Shown: in pieces, positions 1 to 12,255 of the stretch
Layout of the letters: every line of letters starts with the position of its first letter
Numbering within the stretch: the first letter of the stretch is position 1
From: Goekera deserti
GTDB taxonomy: Bacteria > Actinomycetota > Actinomycetes > Mycobacteriales > Geodermatophilaceae
Direction: 5' to 3'
Assembly: GCF_010685995.1 (NCBI RefSeq)
Contig: NZ_JAAGWK010000016.1
Span: 1 to 64,000 of the forward strand
Length of the DNA stretch: 64,000 nt
The notes under the pieces: model-generated
The model's database searches: none
What the model saw: only the letters and a program-made list of their open reading frames with translations
Told to the model about the DNA's origin: nothing
Program-made: the position numbers and the translations under genes

Positions 1-1
1 A

Positions 2-853
2 CGCACTCCCGACCAGATCGTTGCCGGCACTCCCGAGAAGCTCTGGTGGACGTGTCCAGTCGCGCCCGACCACCGCTGGCAGGCATCCGGCGACAGCCGG
101 GTGCGCATCGGCTCCGGCTGCCCGGCCTGCGCGGGACTGCAGGTCTCAGTGACCAACAGCCTCGCCCGGTTCCCGGAGCTGGCCGCGCAGTTCGACGTCG
201 ACGCCAACGACGGCCTGACCCCCGAGCAGGTCGTCGCGGGCACCAACCGCAAGCTGTGGTGGGCCTGCCCGGTCGCACCCGACCACCGTTGGGCCGCGTC
301 CGGCGCCAACCGGCTCAAGGGCCGTGGCTGCCCAGCGTGCGCGTTGGTCGCCGTCTCCATCCGGGAGGTCCGGCTGGCCGCCGAGCTGGCCGCCGCTCTA
401 CCCGGGCTGGACGTCGAAGCGCGGCGCATTGTGATGCCCGGGAGTCGGGCCCTCGAGGCGGACATCCTCGACCGGGAGCGTCGCCTGGTTGTCGAGTATG
501 ACGGCAGCTACTGGCACGCCGGGGAGGACATGGAGCGCCGGGACCGGGTCAAGACCGCTCGGTTGACCGAGGCCGGGTACACCGTCATCCGGGTCCGGGA
601 GGCGCCCCTGGCGCCCATCACCGCCGCCGATGTGACCTGCAGCGAAGAGGACCCGATCCACCTCGTCGCCGCCGCCGTCCTGGACCGCATCGCCGCGTTG
701 CGCCCCGACCTGCTCGCCGTCCACGAGGCCGCCGTCTACCGACGGCACGGCCGTCCCCTCGGCAACGTGGACGCGGAAACCCGGCTGGCGGAGCTGCGCC
801 GCCGAGCCGCCCGCACTGCAGCGGAGCTCGGCAGCGACCCGACCCTGTGGTGA
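2..853 (+). CDS. Zinc-ribbon / Vsr-like endonuclease fold protein (5' partial)
   Basis: The frame is open from the window edge, so the N-terminus is missing. Two zinc-ribbon repeats are visible (about 37-130 and 262-345), each with a W-x-C-P-V-A-P-D-H-x-W core and a terminal GCPAC; this resembles the probable zinc-ribbon family PF14311/DUF4379. The C-terminal half has a nuclease-like core: ADILD, then VVEYDGSYWH, then a KTARL...VIRVRE strand, as in Vsr/DUF559 restriction-endonuclease folds. Family knowledge suggests a DNA-binding nuclease, often found in mobile or defence regions. It is co-oriented with, and upstream of, a Wadjet operon. Substrate and biological role are unknown; the fold call is by motif only. 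Confidence 0.7.
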   Translation, partial: RTPDQIVAGTPEKLWWTCPVAPDHRWQASGDSRVRIGSGCPACAGLQVSVTNSLARFPELAAQFDVDANDGLTPEQVVAGTNRKLWWACPVAPDHRWAASGANRLKGRGCPACALVAVSIREVRLAAELAAALPGLDVEARRIVMPGSRALEADILDRERRLVVEYDGSYWHAGEDMERRDRVKTARLTEAGYTVIRVREAPLAPITAADVTCSEEDPIHLVAAAVLDRIAALRPDLLAVHEAAVYRRHGRPLGNVDAETRLAELRRRAARTAAELGSDPTLW

Positions 854-1010
854 GCAACGCTTCCGGGCGACGGGCTGCGGAAGGCCGTCGGTGGCGCTCC
901 CGCCTCCCCTCTTGGAGGCAGCCGGCCCGCACACGCGACGGCGAAATGGTCCTACCGCGGCACGCTGACGACGGAGATCGCCGGCAGACGGCCGGCGCGA
1001 GGAAGGCAAG

Positions 1011-1634
1011 GTGAGTGCGCTGGCGCGGCAGACCTGGATCGACCAGCACGTCGACATCATGGTGAACGAGCTGGCGGAGCTCGGCCTCACGGCCCGCCGG
1101 GAACCGCTCGCTGACTTGCTGCGCGAGCGCGTCCGCAGCGTCGCCGCGCAGATGGGCGTCAGCGAGCAGACCGCCCGTGGCTACCTGACCACCGACCTGC
1201 TGCGTCAGCTCGCCCGAGAGATGGCGGTGCAGCTCGTCGACGAGCATCCCGGCGCCAACCTGCGCGCCCTGCGCCGCACCGTCTCCCTCGACCGGACCGG
1301 GCTCGGCCGCCTCCTACGTGGCCTCGCCACGTCGGCCCGCATCCTCGCCGCCGGCGAGGATCACGACCGCAGCGACGAGTGCCTGGGGCTGCTGTTCGAC
1401 GTCGGGATCTTCGTCCCCGACACCCCCGCGGACGATTCCGCCGCAGTCCTCGTCCCGCCCGCCGCAATGACCCGGGCCGCCCGACTGCTGAACACCGCCG
1501 CCGACGCGCTGCTGACCGGCAGCAACCCGGACCAGCTGACCGCAGCCGAGGCTGCGGACCTCAGTGCCGGGATCACGGTGGACGTGCGGTGGATGAGGGA
1601 GCTGGCTGCGACCCAGTCGCAAGGCGACGTCTGA
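1011..1634 (+). CDS. Hypothetical protein, possible helix-turn-helix, upstream of Wadjet operon
   Basis: A 207-residue protein starting at GTG 1011 with a purine-rich ribosome site (GGAAGG) just upstream. I do not recognise the family. It is mostly alpha-helical by composition; residues around 45-60 (AAQMGVSEQTARGYL) look like a helix-turn-helix, the only hint of DNA binding. It lies between the zinc-ribbon nuclease gene (157 bases upstream) and the jetA start (about 160 bases downstream), on the same strand. It may be a regulator or accessory gene of the defence cluster, but that is inference from position only. Confidence 0.55.
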   Translation: MSALARQTWIDQHVDIMVNELAELGLTARREPLADLLRERVRSVAAQMGVSEQTARGYLTTDLLRQLAREMAVQLVDEHPGANLRALRRTVSLDRTGLGRLLRGLATSARILAAGEDHDRSDECLGLLFDVGIFVPDTPADDSAAVLVPPAAMTRAARLLNTAADALLTGSNPDQLTAAEAADLSAGITVDVRWMRELAATQSQGDV

Positions 1635-1796
1635 CGCGAGGCGCACTGCAGCTCAGATGACTGCCCCGTGGCGTGGCATGCGCACCATTTGCGGGACCGG
1701 CGGCCGACGGCGTGTCGGTTCCGTCACAGGGTGACGACACACTACGCAGACACACCGGGTGCGGGGGCGCCCGACGAGACGGGGACGGGGAACGGC

Positions 1797-3325
1797 ATGG
1801 ACGTGGTGCAGCAGCACGACGACCTGCTCGCGCAACGCCGCAACCACTCCGCGTGGAAGCTGCTCGTGGCCGACAACGCGCCGCTCGTGATCGGCTTCCT
1901 CGACCGCGTGTTCCTCACCCCGAACGTGCGTCAGCTGCCGGGCCCGGAGCTCACCGAGGCGCTCGAGGACCACCTGCACCCGTTGCGTGGCGCGACACGG
2001 CCGCGTACCCGAAGGCCGCCGAGGCGTACCTGGCGGACTGGGCCGACGCCCGCAACGGCTGGCTGCGCCGGTTCTACCCGACGGGCAGCGACGTCGCCCA
2101 CTACGCGCCGACCTCGGCGGTGGAGACGGCCGCGGCGTTCGTCCGCTCGCTGGGCCGCCGGGAGTTCCTCGGCACGGCGAGCCGGCTGCTCACCGTCCGC
2201 GACCTGCTCCGGCAGATCACCGCCGGTGCGGCCACGGACCCCGAGGTGCGGCTGGGCGCGCTGGAGCGGCAGCGGGCCGAGATCGACGCGCAGATCGAGG
2301 CCATACGCAGCGGCGCCGACACCGGCCTGGACGACACCGCCATCAGGGAGCGGTACGCGCAGGCGGTCACCACCGCCCGGGAGCTGCTGGCCGACCTGCG
2401 CGAGGTGGAGGAGAACTTCCGCGCACTCGACCGCGACGTCCGCCGGCGCGCCACCACTTGGGACGGGCCGCGCGGGGAGTTCCTCAAGACGGTGTTCGGC
2501 ACTACCGCCGAGATCGGCGCGTCCGATCAGGGTCGCTCCTGGCGGGCGTTCTGGGAGCACATGCTCTCGGCCGCCCAGCAGGACGAGCTGGCCGAGCTCC
2601 TGGCTGCGGTGCGCTCGGTGCCGGCGCTGACCGGCGCCGGGGAACAGGTCACCCAGCTGCTGCGCGAGGAGCTGTTCGTCGCCGCCGAGGCCACCCAGCG
2701 CACCGTCGCCTCGCTGTCGGCACAGCTGCGTCGCTTCCTCGACGAACGCTCCTGGAGCGAAGGCCGTCGCATCCACGAGGTCATCCGCGGCACCCTCGCG
2801 GCGGCGCTGGCCGCGCACGACGGCGACGTTCGCGGTCTGGGCAGCGACCTGGCCGGCCTGCGCGCCGAGTTCGCCCTGCCGCTCGAGCGGCCGCTGTACA
2901 CGCCGCGGACCGAGACCCGTCTGGAGTCGACCGCCGCCGAGGATCCCGGCGTCGACCCCGGCGGCGACGATGCCCTCGCCGACCTGCTCGACATCAGTCA
3001 CATCGACCTCGATGCCCTGCGCGCCGCGGTCGGCAGCACCGTCGCCGCGCACGGGGGCCAGGCCACCCTCGGCCAGGTCGTCCGCGCCCATCCGCTCACC
3101 GAGGGCCTGGCCGAGCTCGTCGGGTACCTGCAGGTCTCCGACGACGGCGGCCTGGTGTTCCCGGACCACCGTGAACGCATCGGCTGGACCGATCCCGACG
3201 GTCGCCGCCGGCAGGCCGACGTCCCCCTCGTCCTCTTCGGCGACGCTCCGCGGTCGCCGGTGCCGAGCACCCCCGATCGCGCGTCGACGCCGCAGCCGCG
3301 CACCGCCGAGCAGGAGAGCCGCTGA
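1797..3325 (+). pseudogene. jetA: Wadjet JetA (DUF3375, MksF-like kleisin), apparent frameshift
   Basis: JetA is the kleisin-like subunit of the Wadjet SMC complex that recognises and cuts circular plasmid DNA. The N-terminal DUF3375 signature (LLAQRRNHSAWKLLVADNAP) is read from ATG 1797, but the matching continuation (AAYPKAAEAYLADWA...GWLRRFYP) is in another frame. The switch falls near 1986-1993 and one missing base would restore a single frame of about 510 residues, the normal family length. The rest continues intact to the stop one base before jetB. Either the gene is genuinely broken or the assembly lost one base. I see no slippery heptamer that would support programmed frameshifting. 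Family assignment is firm; functional state is uncertain. Confidence 0.8.
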
Positions 3326-3326
3326 G

Positions 3327-3956
3327 ATGGCCGCCCCCGAACTGTCCATCGCCCTGGCCCACCTGCTCCGCGGGCCGGTTCACGCCGAGGACGTCCCGGC
3401 CGTCTGGACGTCCATCACCTCGCTGGGGCCGCAGCTACGCGAGCACCTGGAAGTTCTGGGCATGCGGCTGGTCGTCGACGACGTCGAGAACTACGCCTAC
3501 CTCCGCCAGCTCGACGAGCTGCCCGAGGGCATGCCCCGCCTGGTCCGCCGGCACGCGCTGACCTTCACCGCGACCGTGCTCCTGATCCTGCTGCGCCAGC
3601 AGCTGGCCACCGCCGAGTCCGACGGCGACACGCCCCGCCTGATCGTGACCACCGAGGAGATGGTCGAGTCGATGCGGCTCTACCACCGCGACGGCACCAG
3701 CGACGAGAAGATCGCCTACGACATCACCGCGCTGGTCAACCTCGGCTACCTGCGGCGGCTGCGGGGCGAGACCGACGTGTTCGAGGTCCGCCGAATCATC
3801 AAGGCGCTGGTCACGGCCGACTGGATCGCCGAGTTCGGCGACCGGCTGCTACAGCTAATCCCGTCCGGCGAGAACGCCGCCGACCACGCCCCAGACCCCA
3901 TGCCTGACGACGCGGACGCCCAGGCCGCCGCGGCCACCGAAGGAGCGCCGGCATGA
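3327..3956 (+). CDS. jetB: Wadjet JetB (DUF4194, MksE-like kite subunit)
   Basis: This 209-residue protein is the JetB/MksE winged-helix 'kite' partner that binds the kleisin JetA in the Wadjet condensin. The DUF4194 pattern is visible: ALTFTATVLLILLRQQL, then a helix pair with VTTEEMVESMRLY, then the winged-helix end DITALVNLGYLRRLRG...FEVRRIIKALV. The ATG at 3327 follows AGGAG at 3312-3316 and lies one base after the jetA stop. Its end overlaps jetC by ATGA, so translation is probably coupled. The last 35 residues are an acidic, Ala/Asp-rich tail. Confidence 0.92.
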   Translation: MAAPELSIALAHLLRGPVHAEDVPAVWTSITSLGPQLREHLEVLGMRLVVDDVENYAYLRQLDELPEGMPRLVRRHALTFTATVLLILLRQQLATAESDGDTPRLIVTTEEMVESMRLYHRDGTSDEKIAYDITALVNLGYLRRLRGETDVFEVRRIIKALVTADWIAEFGDRLLQLIPSGENAADHAPDPMPDDADAQAAAATEGAPA

Positions 3957-6900
3957 GTGCCACGCCCGCCCGTCCGCCGGTCTCCCTGGCGCCGGACGAA
4001 GGGTTCCTGCCGCTGGAGGTGCCCGGCCGCCACGGCGTGCGCCTCGAGCAGTTCCAGATGCTCAACTGGGGCACCTTCGATACCACCGTCGCGCGCCTCG
4101 ACGTCGATGGCAGCAACGCGCTGCTCACCGGCAACGTCGGCGCCGGCAAGTCGACCATCGTCGACGGTCTGACGACGCTGTTCGCCTCCGCGCACAAGGT
4201 CACCTACAACCGGGCCGCCGGGGCCGACCGCAGCGAGCGGACGCTGGCCACCTATGTGCTGGGCCACTACAGCAACGTCTACGACGAGGCCACCGGCAGC
4301 ACCCGCCCTCAGTCACTGCGGGAGCGCAAGAGCGCCTACAGCGTGCTGCTGGCCCGCTTCACCGGGCTGCCCGGGCCGACCGGCACCCTCTCCGCGGGCG
4401 CGGTGTTCTGGTTCGAGGCCACCGGTGTGGTGCACCGCCTGTACTTCACCGCCCCGGCCGCGCTGGACATCGCCGAGCACCTGGCCGGCCACGGCGACAC
4501 GAGAGCAGTCCGGGCGGCGCTGCGCGCGGCTGGCGGCGACCTGTTCGACGACAACTTCCGCAACTACCAGCGCTCCCTGTGCCGGCACCTCGGCATCAGC
4601 CCCGCCGCGCTGGACCTGCTGGTGCAGACGGTGTCGATGAAGTCCGTCGGCAACCTCACCGACTTCGTCCGCGCGCACATGCTCGACGCCGTCGACGCCC
4701 GTGAGCGCATCGGCAAGGTCCTCGACCACTACAGCGACCTCACCCGCGCGCATGAGCTGGTTCAGACCGCCCGCCGACAGCTGGACGCGCTCACACCGGT
4801 CGCCGAAGCGGCCGCCGCCTACGACCGCGCCGTGGCCCGCACCCAGGCCAGCACCGAAGCCGCTGCCGCCGTTCCGGCCCGCGTCGAGCAGCACCGGGTC
4901 ACCCTGCTCGCCGCCGCGATCGCCGAGCTGGCCGGGCAGATGCCCGCCCGCGAGGCCGCGGTCAAGGCCAAGCGGAGCGAGTTGACCGGTCAGGAGACCC
5001 GGCGCACGCAGCTGGCCCTCGCCCTGCAGGCCGGCGGTGGCGCGGAGCTCACCGAGGCTCGGCTGCGCATGGAGGCCGCCGAGACGCGGCTCGGTGACGT
5101 CCGCCGCGCGCACGTCGAGCTCGTCGCCCTGGCCGCCCAGGCCGGCGTCTCTGCCCCGGAGCGCACCGCCGACCACCCGCGGTTCCTCACCGCTGTCAAG
5201 GACGTCGCCGCCCGGCTCGCCGCCGCGGAGCGGGATCTGCGCAAGCGTGACTTCGAGGCTCAGTCGAAGCTGGCCGGCGCCCGCGAGGAGCTGCGGACCC
5301 TGCGCGAGGAGCTCGCCGCGGCCGGCAGCCGCGACAGCAACGTCCCCCTTGACGACGCCCGGCTGCGCGGCCGCATCGCCGAGGCGCTCGGACTGGCCGC
5401 CGACACCCTGCCGTTCGCGGCCGAGCTCATCGCCGTGGCCCCGGAGTCGGCCGAGTGGGAGCCGGCGGCCGAACGCCTCGTCCGCCCGTTCGCGCTGTCC
5501 CTGCTCGTGCCCGAGGAGCACTACGCCCGCGTCGCCGCCTGGGTCGACCGCGAGCACCTCGGCCGCCGGCTGGTGTACTTCCGCGTGCCCAACGTGGTGG
5601 CCGCGCCCGGCGCGCCCCGCGCCGGAACGATGGCTGCGCACCTCCACATCCGCCCCGGCACCCCGGTGAGCGCATGGCTGCGCGCCGAGATCAACCGCCG
5701 CTTCGACCACGTGTGCGTCAACGACGCGACCGAGCTGAGCGGGCACACCCGGGCGGTCACCCGCGCCGGGCAGGTCAAGGACAACGCCCGGCACGAGAAG
5801 GACGACCGCCGGCGCGCCGACGACCGCCGCCACTACGTGCTCGGGTGGGACACCGCCGCCCGGCGTGCGCACCTGACCGCGGCCATCCCGGGCGCTCAGC
5901 GCGCCGTCGAGGAGGCCGAGCGCGCACAGGAGGCCGTCGGCAAGGAGCGGAGCGGCAACGGCGACCGGGAGTACGCCGTTCGCCAGCTCACCGAGCGGTT
6001 CACCGACCCTTCCACCGTGGACGTCACCACCGCGGTGCAGGGCGCTGCCGCCGCCCGCGAACTGCACGAGAAGCTCGCCTCCCGCCCGGACATCGCCGAG
6101 CTGCTGGACCAGCACGCCGACTGCGAGCAGCAGATCAGCACGCTGGGCAACGAGTTGTCCCGGCTGGACCGGGCCCTGGGCGCTGCCACGGAGCGGCTCG
6201 AGCAGCACCGCACCGCACACGACGCCGCCGAGCGGGCGCTGGCTGCCATGCCAGAGCCGGAGCTGTCCGAGGAGGCGACGGCAGCGCTCGCCGACGCCCT
6301 GCGGCAGGCCGGCGTCCCGCCTGCCAAAGCGACCGACTGCGACGCCTGGGGGCAGAAGGTCACCGAGGCGCTGCGCGCACGCGCCGCGTCGGCGTCGGCC
6401 ACCCGGGAGCGCGCCGGCCGGGACCTGACCAACGCGATGAAGGATTTCGCGCACTCCTGGCCGCAGATGGTCGTCGACATCCCCAGCGACCCGGAATCCC
6501 GGGGCGAGTACCTGGCCATCCGGGACCGGCTGGCCACCGACGACCTGCCCAGCTACGAGCAGCAGTTCCGCGAGCAGCTGGAGACCAACGCCATCCACGA
6601 GCTGGTCGGGTTCAGCAACTTCCTCGACCGCGAGGCCGGCAAGATCACCGCGCGCATCGACACGATCAACGGGGCCCTGGCCGAGATCGACTACCGGCCT
6701 GGCACGTACATCCGGCTTGAGGTGGAGCGCAGCGCCGACCTGGAGGTGCGTGAGTTCCGTCAGCAGCTGCGCGACATCACCGCCAACACCCTCCTCGGCG
6801 ACGACGACACCTACGCCGAGTCCCGGTTCCTCTTGGTCAAGGAGCTGCTCGACCGCTTCCAGGGCCGCGAGGGCAACGCCGCCGCCGACGAGCGGTGGAC

Positions 6901-7465
6901 CGCGCGGGTCACCGACGTCCGCATCTGGTTCTCCTTCGCCGCCTCCGAGCGGACCCGCGAGGAGGACGCCCCGCTGGAGCACTACACCGACTCCGGCGGC
7001 AAGTCCGGCGGGCAGAAGGAGAAGCTCGCCTACACCATCCTGGCCGCGTCGCTCTCCTACCAGTACGGCCTCGCCGGCGGCAACGTCTCCGCGTTCCGCT
7101 TCGTGATGATCGACGAGGCGTTCGGCCGCGGTTCGGACGAGTCGACCCGCTTCGGGTTGGAGCTGTTCACCCGCCTGGGGCTGCAGCTGCTCGTCGTCAC
7201 CCCGCTGCAGAAGATTAACACCATCGCGCCGTTCGTCGACGCGGTCGGCTACGTCCGCAACGACGACCCGCGCAGCCGGCTGGTCACCATGACCATCACC
7301 GAGTACCAGGAGCAGCGGGCCCGCCGCGCGGGTCAGCGCCTCGCCGAGCGCGCGGTCACCGTCCTGCCGCCCGCGGACGCCAACGAGAGCGAGGTCGACC
7401 CCGCAGTCGACGGGACGCCGGACGGTGGCGACGATGCGGTGGCCGCGGCCGGCGGCTCCTGGTGA
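3953..7465 (+). CDS. jetC: Wadjet JetC (SMC/MukB-like ATPase)
   Basis: The 1170-residue SMC-like motor of the Wadjet complex, which extrudes DNA loops using ATP. Visible motifs: Walker A GNVGAGKST at residues 60-68; a long Ala/Glu/Arg-rich coiled coil from about 260 to 480 and 650 to 800; an ABC signature GGKSGGQKEKLAY near residue 1013; Walker B FVMIDEAFGRG near 1050. Full length for the family, with no internal break. The start overlaps the jetB stop (ATGA) and its stop overlaps the jetD start (GTGA), so the operon is tightly coupled. This subunit looks intact, unlike jetA. Confidence 0.93.
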   Translation: MSATPARPPVSLAPDEGFLPLEVPGRHGVRLEQFQMLNWGTFDTTVARLDVDGSNALLTGNVGAGKSTIVDGLTTLFASAHKVTYNRAAGADRSERTLATYVLGHYSNVYDEATGSTRPQSLRERKSAYSVLLARFTGLPGPTGTLSAGAVFWFEATGVVHRLYFTAPAALDIAEHLAGHGDTRAVRAALRAAGGDLFDDNFRNYQRSLCRHLGISPAALDLLVQTVSMKSVGNLTDFVRAHMLDAVDARERIGKVLDHYSDLTRAHELVQTARRQLDALTPVAEAAAAYDRAVARTQASTEAAAAVPARVEQHRVTLLAAAIAELAGQMPAREAAVKAKRSELTGQETRRTQLALALQAGGGAELTEARLRMEAAETRLGDVRRAHVELVALAAQAGVSAPERTADHPRFLTAVKDVAARLAAAERDLRKRDFEAQSKLAGAREELRTLREELAAAGSRDSNVPLDDARLRGRIAEALGLAADTLPFAAELIAVAPESAEWEPAAERLVRPFALSLLVPEEHYARVAAWVDREHLGRRLVYFRVPNVVAAPGAPRAGTMAAHLHIRPGTPVSAWLRAEINRRFDHVCVNDATELSGHTRAVTRAGQVKDNARHEKDDRRRADDRRHYVLGWDTAARRAHLTAAIPGAQRAVEEAERAQEAVGKERSGNGDREYAVRQLTERFTDPSTVDVTTAVQGAAAARELHEKLASRPDIAELLDQHADCEQQISTLGNELSRLDRALGAATERLEQHRTAHDAAERALAAMPEPELSEEATAALADALRQAGVPPAKATDCDAWGQKVTEALRARAASASATRERAGRDLTNAMKDFAHSWPQMVVDIPSDPESRGEYLAIRDRLATDDLPSYEQQFREQLETNAIHELVGFSNFLDREAGKITARIDTINGALAEIDYRPGTYIRLEVERSADLEVREFRQQLRDITANTLLGDDDTYAESRFLLVKELLDRFQGREGNAAADERWTARVTDVRIWFSFAASERTREEDAPLEHYTDSGGKSGGQKEKLAYTILAASLSYQYGLAGGNVSAFRFVMIDEAFGRGSDESTRFGLELFTRLGLQLLVVTPLQKINTIAPFVDAVGYVRNDDPRSRLVTMTITEYQEQRARRAGQRLAERAVTVLPPADANESEVDPAVDGTPDGGDDAVAAAGGSW

Positions 7466-8673
7466 GCCCTGCGCGTACCGCTGGCTGGGCCGGGCCGAGC
7501 ACCGTCCGCGAGGCCCTGCGCGTCCGGTGGGACCGCGGCGACGTGCTGCGGGAGCTGCACACCGACCCCGCGGACCGGCGCGTGTTCCCGCTGCGCGTGC
7601 GGCTGCCCGGGCCCGGCCGCACGGAGCTGGCCGACCGGTACGCCGAGGCCACCACCTGGGCCCGCGGGCTGCGTGACGCCGCCGCCCGCGACGGCTGGAC
7701 GCTCGAGGTCAGGCCGGTGCGCGCCGGCGGGCTCGGCACCCAGCCGATGCCGTACGCCGGAGTCGTCGACACCCCGGAGCTGGCGCTGCGGCTGCTCGGC
7801 CGCGACCGCGCCGGTGACGCCGCCCGCTTCGCGGCCGCGCTGCAGGCGGCCAACGCCCTCGACCCAGCGGCGCGGGATCTGGCACTGGGCCGCCCGCACG
7901 ACGTGCTCGGAGCCGCCGGCGACTGGCCGCTGCTGCTGCAGCTCGCCGGCTGGATCCGCGACCATCCCCGGCCCGGCATCTACCCGCGGCAGATCCCTGT
8001 CGCCGGGGTGCACACGAAGGTCCTGGAGCGGAACACCAGGCTGCTCAGCCGCCTCCTCGACGCCCTCCTACCCGCCGAGGCGGTCGAGCCGGCCGCGCGC
8101 GGGTTCGCCGCCCGGTACGGCTTCGTTGAACCGGCCCGCCGCGCACGGGTCCGCGGCGCCGCTGCCGCGCTCGGCGTCCCCGTCGACGGCACCGCCGACG
8201 TCGAGTGGGACGTGGCCGCCCTCGCCGCGTTGAACCCGGCCAACTGCGGCATCACCGAGCTGCTCGTCTTGGAGAACAAGACGTCGTTCCTCACCGCCCC
8301 CACCGGCGCCGGCCGGCTCATCCTGTGGGGAGCCGGCTACGGCGCGGACGAGCTGCTCGCGGCACTGCCGTGGCGGACCGAGGTCGCCGTCCGCTACTGG
8401 GGCGACATCGACACCCACGGGTACGTGATCCTCGCCCGGGTCCGCGCGGTCGCGCCGCACGCCACCAGCGTCCTGATGGACACAGCGACGCTACTGGCTC
8501 ACCGGCCGTACTGGTCGACCGAAGCCGCACCGCGGACCGATCCGCTGCCCCACCTGACGGCGACCGAGGCGGAGGTGTACGCCGCGTTGTGCGTGGGCAC
8601 GCACGGCGTCGGCGTCCGGCTGGAGCAGGAGTTCGTCCGCTTCGATCTGGTCACGTCCGCGCTGATGTCGTAG
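7462..8673 (+). CDS. jetD: Wadjet JetD (DUF3322/DUF2220, Toprim-like nuclease)
   Basis: The 403-residue nuclease subunit that cuts the plasmid after loop extrusion by JetABC. The N-terminal half matches DUF3322 (START-like arm). The C-terminal half carries Toprim residues: LVLENKTSF near residue 270 (catalytic Glu) and YWGDIDTHG near 313-320 (the metal-binding Asp-x-Asp). GTG start overlaps the jetC stop by four bases. The protein appears complete. It is the last gene of the operon; downstream lies a convergent, decayed patatin gene. Confidence 0.92.
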   Translation: MSPARTAGWAGPSTVREALRVRWDRGDVLRELHTDPADRRVFPLRVRLPGPGRTELADRYAEATTWARGLRDAAARDGWTLEVRPVRAGGLGTQPMPYAGVVDTPELALRLLGRDRAGDAARFAAALQAANALDPAARDLALGRPHDVLGAAGDWPLLLQLAGWIRDHPRPGIYPRQIPVAGVHTKVLERNTRLLSRLLDALLPAEAVEPAARGFAARYGFVEPARRARVRGAAAALGVPVDGTADVEWDVAALAALNPANCGITELLVLENKTSFLTAPTGAGRLILWGAGYGADELLAALPWRTEVAVRYWGDIDTHGYVILARVRAVAPHATSVLMDTATLLAHRPYWSTEAAPRTDPLPHLTATEAEVYAALCVGTHGVGVRLEQEFVRFDLVTSALMS

Positions 8674-8711
8674 GCGCCGGGAGGTGTCGAGGACTCCTGG
8701 CGGCCCGCGCC

Positions 8712-9775
8712 TCAGCCGAGCAGGGCCGGGGTGTAGTGGTGGAGCAGTAGGCGTGTCAGCTGCTCCCCGCGGGTGGTGACGGCGCCGAGGTCCTCGTCCT
8801 TCATCGCCTTGAAGTTCGTGGGGTATCCGTTCACGCGCTCCAGCGGCACCAGCCCAGGGGCGGCCATCGGCAGCTTGTCGTCCTTCTGGCCGAGGTAGGC
8901 GTGGACTACGCCCCGGAACTGCCCGGGGCCTGCGGAGTTGTGCAGCCGCGCCCGGGTGCCGTCCTGGGTCCCGCGGTAGGTGATGTCGAAGCTGCGCATG
9001 AGCCGGAACGGCAGCACCCGAGCGTTGGATTCGCCCGGCTCCTGGCGGCCGGCGTCGGACGCGATCACGTAGTCGACCGGGTACACGTGGTCGGTGAACG
9101 CCCGATCGCGCCCGGACTCGAGCACGGACAGCCCTAGGTTGTCGTAGACACCCCCGTCGGTCAGGGCGACCCGCTGGCGCTGTGTCCGGCCGCGGCACTC
9201 GAAGGTGTACGTCCTCTGCACCGCCGGCAGGAGCAGCGGGAAGGCGGCGCTGGCCGCGACGGCCTCCGCCACCCGGATGGGCTCCACGATGCGCCCGTAC
9301 ATCCAGCTGGCACTGACGTCGCTGCCGAAGCGGACCGCGCCCGGCCGGTGATCAGGTCGGTGGCCGAGAGCACCGTGGCCAGCCCGGGGTGGGTGACGTC
9401 GGGCAGGTGCCTGTCGCCGAAGGCGCGGTCGGCGAGCGCGGCGGCGAGCACATCGGTGCGATTCCGGCTGGCCCGTTCGCGGCCGCCGGGACCGGCGGCC
9501 GCGACGAGGTCGCCGGCCCTGCGGGCGAGGCGCGCAGGAGACAGGGTTCCTGTGGCGAGCTGCAACTGCAGGCCCCGCCGCAGGAGCGCCATGACGTGCT
9601 CGTCGAACTCATCGAACCGCGCGGGGCCGTAGGCCCACAGTGCGGCCAGCAGGCTTCCGCCGCTGATGCCGCTGATGCCGCTGATGCCGCTGATGCCGCT
9701 GACCTTGTGCAGGACGCCGGTGTCGTGAGTGGGGTCCGCGGGTCCATCGCGTGCCGCAGACTGGCCGAGAACCAC
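8712..9775 (-). pseudogene. Patatin-like phospholipase remnant (5' truncated and frameshifted)
   Basis: Two overlapping reading frames together spell one patatin-like lipase. The upstream part has the nucleophile elbow expanded to GISGISGISGISGGS followed by LLAALWAYG; the downstream part has MYGRIVEPIRVAEAV and the catalytic-Asp motif ALTDGGVYDNLG. The frames change near 9325-9335, where the frame encoding VRFGSDVSASWMYG takes over after ATDLITGRA. The usual N-terminal oxyanion-hole glycine motif is absent: patatin similarity begins just left of a strong hairpin (9776-9807). I infer a recombination-truncated, decayed gene. Intact relatives are membrane-phospholipid hydrolases, some acting in phage defence. 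Confidence 0.72.
9662..9697. repeat. 9-bp microsatellite in the patatin nucleophile elbow
   Basis: Four perfect copies of GCTGATGCC, followed by a partial copy. On the minus strand they read GGC-ATC-AGC, i.e. repeated Gly-Ile-Ser, which multiplies the GxSGG catalytic elbow of the patatin remnant. In-frame slippage would add or remove triplets of residues without breaking the frame. Confidence 0.9.
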
Positions 9776-9807
9776 CGCGGGCCCACCGGGGTACCGGTGG
9801 GCCCGCG
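9776..9807. terminator. Strong hairpin after the integrase gene
   Basis: A perfect 14-bp inverted repeat (CGCGGGCCCACCGG and its complement) around a GGTA loop lies just downstream of the integrase stop on the minus strand. There is no T-run, which is common for GC-rich actinobacterial terminators. It also marks the point where patatin homology ends. Confidence 0.6.
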
Positions 9808-9818
9808 ACGGAGGTGGG

Positions 9819-11147
9819 CTACTGCTCGTCGTGCAGCGGGCGCTCGAAGAGCTGCTGCTTCAGCTTGGCCAGCTCGTCCAGGCGCTCCTTGAGGTAGTGG
9901 TCGGTGGAACTGCCCCCGTCGTGCGCCAGGTGGAGCTTGGCGGCCTGCTGGTCGGCCGCCTTGAACACCATGCGTCCGCTGGTGTGGCGGATGTCGTGGC
10001 AGCGGAGCTCGACGCGCTCCGTCCACGGCAGGTGGCGACGGACCCGGGCGAACAGCCCCTCGATGCGCTTGCGCGAGATGGGCCGGACCGTGCGCGAGAC
10101 GAAGTAGCCGTGCTCGTCGAAGGTGTCGACGGGCCGGCCGTAGAAGACGGGGGAGGACCCCGTCAGTGCGGGGATGCCGTGCCGGCGGTCCTCCTCGGAG
10201 GCGTCCGGCGGCGCGGCGACACGGGGTCCGCGGGTGAGCGAGTGGATGACCAGGTCGGCCATGTGCGTGCTGGTGGTGGGCCGGTACCGCCAGGTCTTCT
10301 TCTTCTTGTCCCAGTAGCGGATGCGGCAGCCCTCGACGTCGAGCCCGCCGCAGGTCGTGTCCAGCAGCGCACCGCGGCGGACGGCCTGGATGAGCAGGTG
10401 CCGCAGGATGAGCCCGTCGAGCGCGGGGTCCTGGCCGGTGCTGACGGCGGTGCCGTAGACCTCGACGAACTCCTGGTCGGTCAGCGAGCGCGCTCCGGCC
10501 TCCTGTCGGGGCGGCAGCTTGACCTTCAGCGCCGGGTTGGTGGCGGCTTTCTCCTCGTCGACCAGCCACGTGACCATCCACCGGGTCGCCTGGATGAACT
10601 GCTCGCGGGCCCCGCGACCGTCGCTGTGCAGCAGGTTCCGGCCGGCTGCCTCGCGCTTGACGTTGCGGGCGACGGTGCGCTTCAGTCCGCGGCGCTGGGC
10701 CCACCAGGCGGCCTCGGCGATGACGCCGCGGGTCATCTCCTTGACCGCCAGGTCAGGCACGCCGAGGTAGCGGTCGGCGCAGTCGCCGTGCAGCTCGCCG
10801 TCGGGCATCGCGCACACCTCGGCGTGTCCGTCGTCACCGCCGGGGCAGGGGCACGGCCCGGTCGCGCACGCCGGGCAGGGGCACGGGCACACGTCGGGCA
10901 GCCCGTCGACGAGCAGCCGCAGGTAGGGCGCCCAGGTCTTCTCGCTGTCGGGCAGGTCCTGGCGCAGGGCGGTGGTCGCCTCGGCGACCGCCTGCCGCAC
11001 TCGGTAGAGCTGGGCCTGGGCCGGGAGCATCGTCTCGACGACGGACGCGTCGAAGCCCTGCGCGAGCAGGGTCGCGCGCATGGCGTCGCGGGTGGCCTCG
11101 TGCACGGCGTCGTCCGAGCGCGTCGCGGGGGTGGGAATGGTGGTCAT
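9819..11147 (-). CDS. Tyrosine recombinase / phage-type integrase with Cys-rich insert
   Basis: A 442-residue site-specific recombinase. The catalytic domain shows an Arg in LLIQAVRRGALL, the HxxR box HDIRHTSGRMV, the second His box LAHDGGSSTDHY and the nucleophilic Tyr in DHYLKE. The N-terminal part contains an unusual cysteine-rich stretch (about residues 87-125) with a CPCPCPAC start and further C/H residues, suggestive of metal binding. It lies about 1 kb from the 3' end of a tRNA-Leu gene, the normal relation for an integrase and its tRNA attachment site. The downstream hairpin probably ends its transcript; an AbrB-like gene lies 63 bases upstream in the same direction. Confidence 0.88.
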   Translation of the reverse strand: MTTIPTPATRSDDAVHEATRDAMRATLLAQGFDASVVETMLPAQAQLYRVRQAVAEATTALRQDLPDSEKTWAPYLRLLVDGLPDVCPCPCPACATGPCPCPGGDDGHAEVCAMPDGELHGDCADRYLGVPDLAVKEMTRGVIAEAAWWAQRRGLKRTVARNVKREAAGRNLLHSDGRGAREQFIQATRWMVTWLVDEEKAATNPALKVKLPPRQEAGARSLTDQEFVEVYGTAVSTGQDPALDGLILRHLLIQAVRRGALLDTTCGGLDVEGCRIRYWDKKKKTWRYRPTTSTHMADLVIHSLTRGPRVAAPPDASEEDRRHGIPALTGSSPVFYGRPVDTFDEHGYFVSRTVRPISRKRIEGLFARVRRHLPWTERVELRCHDIRHTSGRMVFKAADQQAAKLHLAHDGGSSTDHYLKERLDELAKLKQQLFERPLHDEQ

Positions 11148-11210
11148 GCGGAGTTCTCCAGTCGTGGCGGCGGCACCGGTCGTGCCGCGGACGTGAAGGG
11201 ACGGTGCGGG

Positions 11211-12053
11211 TCAGCGGACGATGCGCAGTCGCCCGCCGGCGTCGCCGGCAGCGGCCGGGGCCGAGGCGGCCGGCGCGACGCCGTCAGCACCGAACTGCTC
11301 GTCCCCGGGGGAGGCGGACGCGGTGGCCGCGGGGCGACGAAGCCCGTCGAGCAGGTCGCCGATGCCGGCCGACAGCCGGCTGGCGGCGGTCACGGTGATG
11401 ACGCCGCGGTCGGTGTCGAGGACGGCCAGGACGTCGGCGCCGTCGGGGATGCCGGCCTCACGCCGGACCGCGGCGGTCAAGGTCAGCCGGCCGCGAGCAT
11501 CCAGCGGAAGGGCGGCGACGGCGAAGCCCGGCCGCGGGCGCTCGGCGCTGCCGGGCAGGAACACGGTGAGCACCGCCCCGTCGCGCTCGGCCGGCGCGGG
11601 AGCCGCCGCAGCCAGCGTGAGCGGCAGCATGAGCCGGCCCTTGGCGTCGAGCATGCGGATGAGCGCGTTGCTGCGGGGTGCGGCCGGGTCGGCCGGCCGC
11701 ACCCACATCCCGGAGAGGTCCACCGCCGGCCCGGTGCCGGCATCGCCGCCGGTACCGGTGGCCAGCCGCAGCGCGTCGGCCGGCGCCCGCTCGCCAACAG
11801 CGGCCAGAAGCGGGCCGACCCCGGCCCACGAGGCGGGCACCCCGGACAGCGCGGGAGCGGCCGCGGGTGTGGCTACGGCGGTGACGGGCGACGTGGCACG
11901 CGCGGGAATCGGAGTCGGCGCCGCCGCAGTGCGGACGCGCGCCATCGGCGGGAGCGGGGGAGCTGCGTTGGGCATGCGCAGACCGGTGCTGAGGTCCCGA
12001 CGATCGGCAGTCGCCAGCACGGCGCGCAGGGCAGCGGCGTCAGATTCACCCAT
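11211..12053 (-). CDS. Protein with two AbrB/SpoVT-like hairpins, integrase partner
   Basis: Residues with the pattern LDAKGRLMLPLTL and, about 50 residues later, LDARGRLTLTAAVRREAGIPDGADV are two copies of the AbrB/MazE/SpoVT swapped-hairpin DNA-binding motif; the second is followed by a good IxV strand. The N-terminal 90 residues are Ala/Pro-rich and the C-terminal tail is disordered. I chose ATG 12053 because longer frames run into the tRNA gene; the ribosome site is weak, so the start is uncertain. It is transcribed towards the integrase with a 63-base gap, suggesting one operon. Likely a regulator or directionality partner of the recombinase (inference). Confidence 0.6.
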   Translation of the reverse strand: MGESDAAALRAVLATADRRDLSTGLRMPNAAPPLPPMARVRTAAAPTPIPARATSPVTAVATPAAAPALSGVPASWAGVGPLLAAVGERAPADALRLATGTGGDAGTGPAVDLSGMWVRPADPAAPRSNALIRMLDAKGRLMLPLTLAAAAPAPAERDGAVLTVFLPGSAERPRPGFAVAALPLDARGRLTLTAAVRREAGIPDGADVLAVLDTDRGVITVTAASRLSAGIGDLLDGLRRPAATASASPGDEQFGADGVAPAASAPAAAGDAGGRLRIVR

Positions 12054-12169
12054 TCCGGGTGTCGCCGCGGGGGAGATGGTGGCCGCATCGGTCCGAGAGG
12101 GGACCGTGCGTTCCGGCCGGGGAGAGCCCGGCTCTGGGCTTGGAAGGTGGGAGAACTCCCACTCCATGG

Positions 12170-12255
12170 TGTCCGAGGGGGGACTTGAACCCCCACGCCC
12201 GATAAAGGGCACTAGCACCTCAAGCTAGCGCGTCTGCCATTCCGCCACCCGGACA
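12170..12255 (-). tRNA. tRNA-Leu (anticodon GAG)
   Basis: On the minus strand the sequence folds as a class II tRNA: acceptor GTCCGGG pairing with CTCGGAC, a D-arm, an anticodon stem CTAGC/GCTAG enclosing loop TTGAGGT (anticodon GAG), a long variable arm and a T-arm with GGTTCAAGTCC. Discriminator A is followed by genomic CCA (down to 12167). The 3' end faces the integrase, so it is the probable attachment site of the element to its left. Confidence 0.95.

Follow-up and report, generated by a model that had tools for sequence, protein, structure and literature searches.

Does the broken kleisin gene of a Wadjet operon in Goekera deserti reflect a genuine inactivating mutation, or an error in the sequence from which it is read? 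In this family, an intact Wadjet system extrudes plasmid DNA, which JetD goes on to cut, and a frame change in jetA bears directly on whether such a system operates in this genome. The stretch of DNA analysed here, which we call the window, comprises 64,000 nucleotides (NCBI assembly GCF_010685995.1, contig NZ_JAAGWK010000016.1, positions 1-64,000, forward strand) and is the start of contig C53 in the G. deserti genome (G000).

A type I Wadjet operon with jetA in two frames

The genes jetA, jetB, jetC and jetD are adjacent and in this order at window positions 1797-8673, and all four are best matched by type 1 PADLOC models. These genes form a type I Wadjet operon, sharing both gene order and type 1 profile matches with the systems also named JetABCD, MksBEFG and EptABCD. 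Its features are as follows.

1797-1991, plus strand: 5' part of jetA, 65 residues in a separate frame (Pfam DUF3375 positions 2-52, E 5.2e-13)
1986-1994, plus strand: frame-break site, one base shorter than the intact Blastococcus tunisiensis copy
1991-3325, plus strand: 3' part of jetA in the next frame, 444 residues (DUF3375 positions 58-474 of 474, E 1.5e-105; PADLOC JetA1 E 5.9e-136)
3327-3956, plus strand: jetB, KITE subunit, open (DUF4194 E 1.4e-35; PADLOC JetB1 E 3.1e-56)
3953-7465, plus strand: jetC, SMC ATPase, open (SbcC_Walker_B and AAA_29; PADLOC JetC1 positions 15-1121 of 1123, 1129 bits)
7462-8673, plus strand: jetD, Toprim nuclease, open (JetD_C E 9.7e-40, DUF3322 E 3.9e-37; PADLOC JetD1 E 2.3e-106)

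The products of jetB, jetC and jetD each cover nearly the full length of their family models in both Pfam and PADLOC, in agreement with a preliminary description of the window in which these three genes were called complete. The translations contain what we take to be the Walker A (GNVGAGKST), SMC signature (SGGKSGGQ), Walker B (FVMIDEAF) and Toprim DxD (WGDIDTHG) motifs. The jetA gene is split across two frames at about position 1993: the best PADLOC JetA model is matched over positions 2-60 in the first frame and over 65-477 of 480 in the next. A frame scan based on codon usage, which needs no reference sequence, independently put the switch at 1982. The frame that opens at 1797 runs into a stop at TGA 2628-2630, about 700 bases short of jetB, and the first in-frame starts of the second frame past the break are GTG 2120 (residue 109) and GTG 2246. 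Inspection of the sequence revealed no homopolymer at the break, and no slippery heptamer was seen there by eye. The first 65 residues of JetA, which hold 14 invariant columns in an alignment of seven JetA proteins, are identical to those of the intact B. tunisiensis copy. A whole-genome search found no second DUF3375 or JetD_C gene elsewhere in the genome. The four intact subunits that define a type I Wadjet system are not encoded here, jetA being out of frame, and we file the operon as a broken member of this type and not as a working system.

An intact twin on a shared tRNA-Leu island

A JetC search of genome contigs identified a close counterpart of the operon, at 99% identity, in Blastococcus tunisiensis DSM 46838 (L007). 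The genome reached through this locus (G041) and one in our family survey (G076) have the same contig and coordinates and were therefore counted as one; the survey places G. deserti and B. tunisiensis in different genera (g1 and g11). Window positions 1-12254 align with B. tunisiensis DNA at 99.5% identity, with 50 mismatches and three gaps: two of these are one base long, at about 1993 and at 11834, and the third, at 9658, is a 9-base repeat unit. The B. tunisiensis jetA stays open in a single frame for 509 residues, and the solved JetA structures 8dk1, 8q72, 8as8 and 9qxt match its product. These results bear out the essentials of the preliminary description, which had recognized a Wadjet operon with a frameshifted jetA, placed the frame change at about 1986-1993 and judged the gene to be one base away from an open frame: DUF3375 is matched in two frames, the gap in the alignment follows 1993 (with the scan's switch at 1982), and the intact copy is one base longer. 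The B. tunisiensis operon has the same genes beside the same tRNA-Leu; it differs in that its jetA is one open frame and in that the genome is without a near match to the left ~25 kb of the island described below. Since the intact twin is 99.5% identical, we regard the jetA break as recent.

The surroundings of the operon include the following features.

1-12254, no strand: the window's portion of the shared module, at 99.5% identity to B. tunisiensis
9819-11147, minus strand: tyrosine integrase (Pfam Phage_integrase E 1.7e-5, 25.1 bits, just below the cut-off of 27.1)
12167-12254, minus strand: tRNA-Leu(gag), the integration target (ARAGORN); the high identity to B. tunisiensis ends at its 5' end
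12169-12187, no strand: attR core, a 19-base piece of the tRNA-Leu 3' end, repeated exactly and directly at G000:C52:137869-137887

The Wadjet operon sits on a tRNA-Leu integrative island, with an integrase beside the tRNA gene, a direct repeat at the far boundary and a module whose identity to B. tunisiensis far exceeds that of the backbone. In G. deserti the island measures about 43.3 kb, of which contig C52 holds 31.1 kb and the window 12.2 kb. B. tunisiensis carries the integrase too, with three codon differences between the copies. The longest exact match after the 19-base repeat is 13 bases; a stricter search for a 30-base att site, allowing three mismatches, recovered solely the tRNA itself. 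Comparing relatives with C52 for an empty site yielded only weak alignments, for three of seven stretches, of which C52 117363-118312 came closest to the tRNA; one stretch (L174) could not be placed on the tRNA. When plasmid records were compared with window positions 1-12254, seven matches were obtained, each covering about 1% of the query and located at the tRNA gene.

The shared module continues leftward on C52:163146-169001. Because the module is 99.1-99.5% identical between the two genomes and the alignable chromosome beyond the tRNA is only 69-85% identical, the reading that fits best is a recent transfer between genera. The whole of the ~43 kb was rejected as the transferred unit: just the stretch from C52:163146 to window position 12254 is common to B. 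tunisiensis, in which the far-left ~25 kb of the island has no near match. In B. tunisiensis the start of the module adjoins DNA at the contig edge in which a transposase gene can be read by eye.

Mutation or error

We consider it likely that the jetA break is a real, inactivating single-base deletion in a type I Wadjet operon on a tRNA-Leu island, because few frame breaks are found elsewhere and the site is not a homopolymer. The frame scan covered 643.5 kb of the genome, 572 kb of which was called coding, and returned six candidates: jetA, a patatin-like gene at about 9341, C52 69529, C52 136619 and a single break in each of L163 and L186. The patatin-like break is common to B. tunisiensis, which leaves four unshared candidates besides jetA. 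With the sensitivity of the scan taken into account (32 of 60 random single-base test deletions were recovered), the background works out at roughly one per 76 kb of coding sequence (about 0.02 per jetA), on the assumption that these four others are all errors. A second test, with the genes of B. tunisiensis, gave 2 frame-changed genes among the 53 matched (72 predicted), jetA being one, and the reverse test gave 3 among 53 (74 predicted), jetA again included. The other possible change in the forward test lies near C53 73.6 kb (~73580), outside the window, and affects a gene with a conserved counterpart in B. tunisiensis.

An assembly or sequencing error, with an operon that is intact and working as in B. 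tunisiensis, is the most serious alternative, though an unlikely one in our judgement. It is consistent with a twin that differs by just 0.5% and is intact, with open reading frames for jetB, jetC and jetD, and with the occurrence of single errors in draft genomes, this assembly comprising 61 contigs, one of them of 681 bases; against it stand the sequence of the break site, which is no homopolymer, and the scarcity of frame breaks elsewhere, with four unshared candidates across the 572 kb called coding, at the sensitivity given above. The preliminary description had offered a dead system and a base error as two possibilities; the evidence leans to the real mutation without deciding between them.

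A JetA match was found in 21 of the 112 genomes of the family survey, and all 21 loci, the window and 20 others, were examined. Across JetA residues 60-70 the frame is unbroken in each of the 18 other loci that cover the break site, one of them the twin; in the two remaining loci the match falls short of the site (residues 1-37 only in G096, 425-495 only in G104). This comparison across the site, which had been proposed as a check on the frame change, supports a break in the window. All four jet genes were matched in 13 of the 21 loci. Frame breaks occur in three of these 13 operons: in jetA of the window, in both jetA and jetC of G065 (three pieces for each gene) and in jetD of G007 (two pieces), the latter two genomes being covered by entries L139 and L132. 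Of the 19 other jet loci, the frame scan flagged 2, namely G065, where jetA and jetC are affected, and G093 (L136), where the flagged site is not in a jet gene; it missed the jetD split of G007. The scan returned zero candidates in 100 kb of G065 outside the operon, and we therefore regard that operon as specifically damaged. Among 79 other public loci, which were found by JetC and are thus biased toward an intact JetC, 64 have jetA as a single ORF over 80% of the model, four have a partial jetA that in every case starts at a locus edge, and 11 have no jetA match; interior splits occur in two (jetD in L080, jetC and jetD in L084). Breaks in jet genes are real but uncommon, and three of 13 is too few for claiming an excess. 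Six survey genomes of one genus (L140-L145) have matches to jetA, jetB and jetC, whereas a search of 11.5-12 kb at each locus found no jetD match at E 1e-4; these loci are perhaps MksBEF-type condensins.

Apart from the jetA frame, the operon does not look decayed when its codons are compared with those of the twin. Silent and amino acid-changing differences number 2 and 0 in jetB, 3 and 1 in the second part of jetA, 3 and 8 in jetC, and 2 and 4 in jetD. At JetC position 991 the window has isoleucine, where 14 of 17 other JetC proteins have asparagine and three have glutamine; the JetC of the intact twin has unusual residues of its own at conserved sites (P465S, H523D). Changes at conserved sites of JetC are thus seen on both sides and would not indicate one-sided decay, with the caveat that 99.5% identity gives such a comparison little power.

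Consequences of the break and neighbouring genes

A ribosome that starts at 1797 would make 65 correct JetA residues, followed by out-of-frame residues up to the stop at 2630. Only an internal start could yield the remainder of JetA, and from the first of these in its frame, GTG 2120, the product would lack 108 residues. JetABC is described in PMC10586767 as a dimer of SMC motors, with JetD as the subunit that cuts DNA, and the same account has the N-terminus of the kleisin joining the two motors. It also states for Bacillus subtilis that all four subunits are required, a requirement that the preliminary description had attributed to Wadjet generally. Because the N-terminal part of JetA would be severed from the remainder, no working complex is to be expected. 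The genes jetB to jetD could still be read but may be less translated, because the jetA stop no longer adjoins the jetB start. Judging from these reading frames and the unbroken twin, the Wadjet copy in the window is most likely dead.

It is highly improbable that the system works in an altered form, with a JetA made by ribosomal frameshifting, by initiation at an internal start or as two pieces acting together. Both pieces are open, the second frame from GTG 1673 to 3325, and the second part retains most of the DUF3375 profile; however, the N-terminal part carries the 14 invariant columns, neither GTG 2120 nor GTG 2246 has a clear ribosome-binding site by eye, and the two-frame layout is not conserved. 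Programmed frameshifting in particular was set aside, given that no slippery run or homopolymer was seen by eye at the site and that 18 of 18 relatives read through. We give equally little credence to the retention of JetB, JetC and JetD for another role without JetA: the three genes are open and the six genomes of a related genus with an unmatched jetD do exemplify partial retention, but of a different subset, a break with a 99.5% identical intact twin is too recent for retention to be informative, and we know of no role for a motor without its kleisin.

Returning to a real, inactivating deletion, we find the event an ordinary one in a system of known kind, to which the intact twin and the mobile setting add some use. 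Two strains without Wadjet are described as taking up plasmids more readily, an EptABCD null mutant of Mycobacterium smegmatis and a spontaneous deletion mutant of Clostridium cellulovorans (PMC10586767; PMC12287153); in the latter, which is without jetABCD, the reported uptake of a conjugative plasmid rises by about five orders of magnitude (PMC12287153). In contrast to these mutants, the probable loss in the window is a single-base change in one gene, seen in the DNA sequence. One could speculate, as a doubtful proposition at present, that Wadjet is costly to its carrier and that loss of jetA was selected soon after the operon reached a new host, sparing the island's own circle or resident plasmids. 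The targets of Wadjet are given as lying in a size range below 50-100 kb (PMC10586767), and the excised island could therefore be a target itself, since a circle of ~43 kb falls within this range. If this were true, the recurrent breaks in the family (the three of 13 four-gene operons) would be traces of selection for Wadjet loss.

Annotation from profiles only would label this genome as Wadjet-positive in spite of its out-of-frame subunit. The two operons constitute a natural pair across genera, one intact and one broken, that differ by one base in jetA and a few other changes, and could be used to ask whether loss of Wadjet follows transfer and whether an island that bears Wadjet is targeted by its own nuclease.

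Several other genes in and near the island deserve mention. The patatin-like gene (8712-9775, minus strand) has a Pfam match just below the cut-off, and its frame switch at about 9341 is the one common to B. tunisiensis; a 79% identical copy at G041:C18:160937-161898 was left unflagged by the frame scan. At window 9658-9700 there is an in-frame tandem repeat of 9 bases, which the patatin-like frame translates as GIS units; B. tunisiensis has one unit fewer. Further left on the island lie DISARM-like genes (G000:C52:141918-149803, L175), with DrmB, DrmA and a DrmE C-terminal domain, for which B. tunisiensis holds no near match. Inside the shared module, about 1.7 kb at G000:C52:164193-165878 (L128) is missing from B. 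tunisiensis; this insert overlaps an ORF with DUF4379 treble-clef repeats, and the break between contigs C52 and C53 also falls in such repeats. In the same locus, a lone DUF1016 N-terminal domain of 176 residues (G000:C52:163440-163970) is possibly a truncated gene. Finally, 47 bases inside the left edge of the module, at G000:C52:163193, 13 bases match the 5' part of the tRNA-Leu exactly, which may be due to chance or mark an old attachment site.
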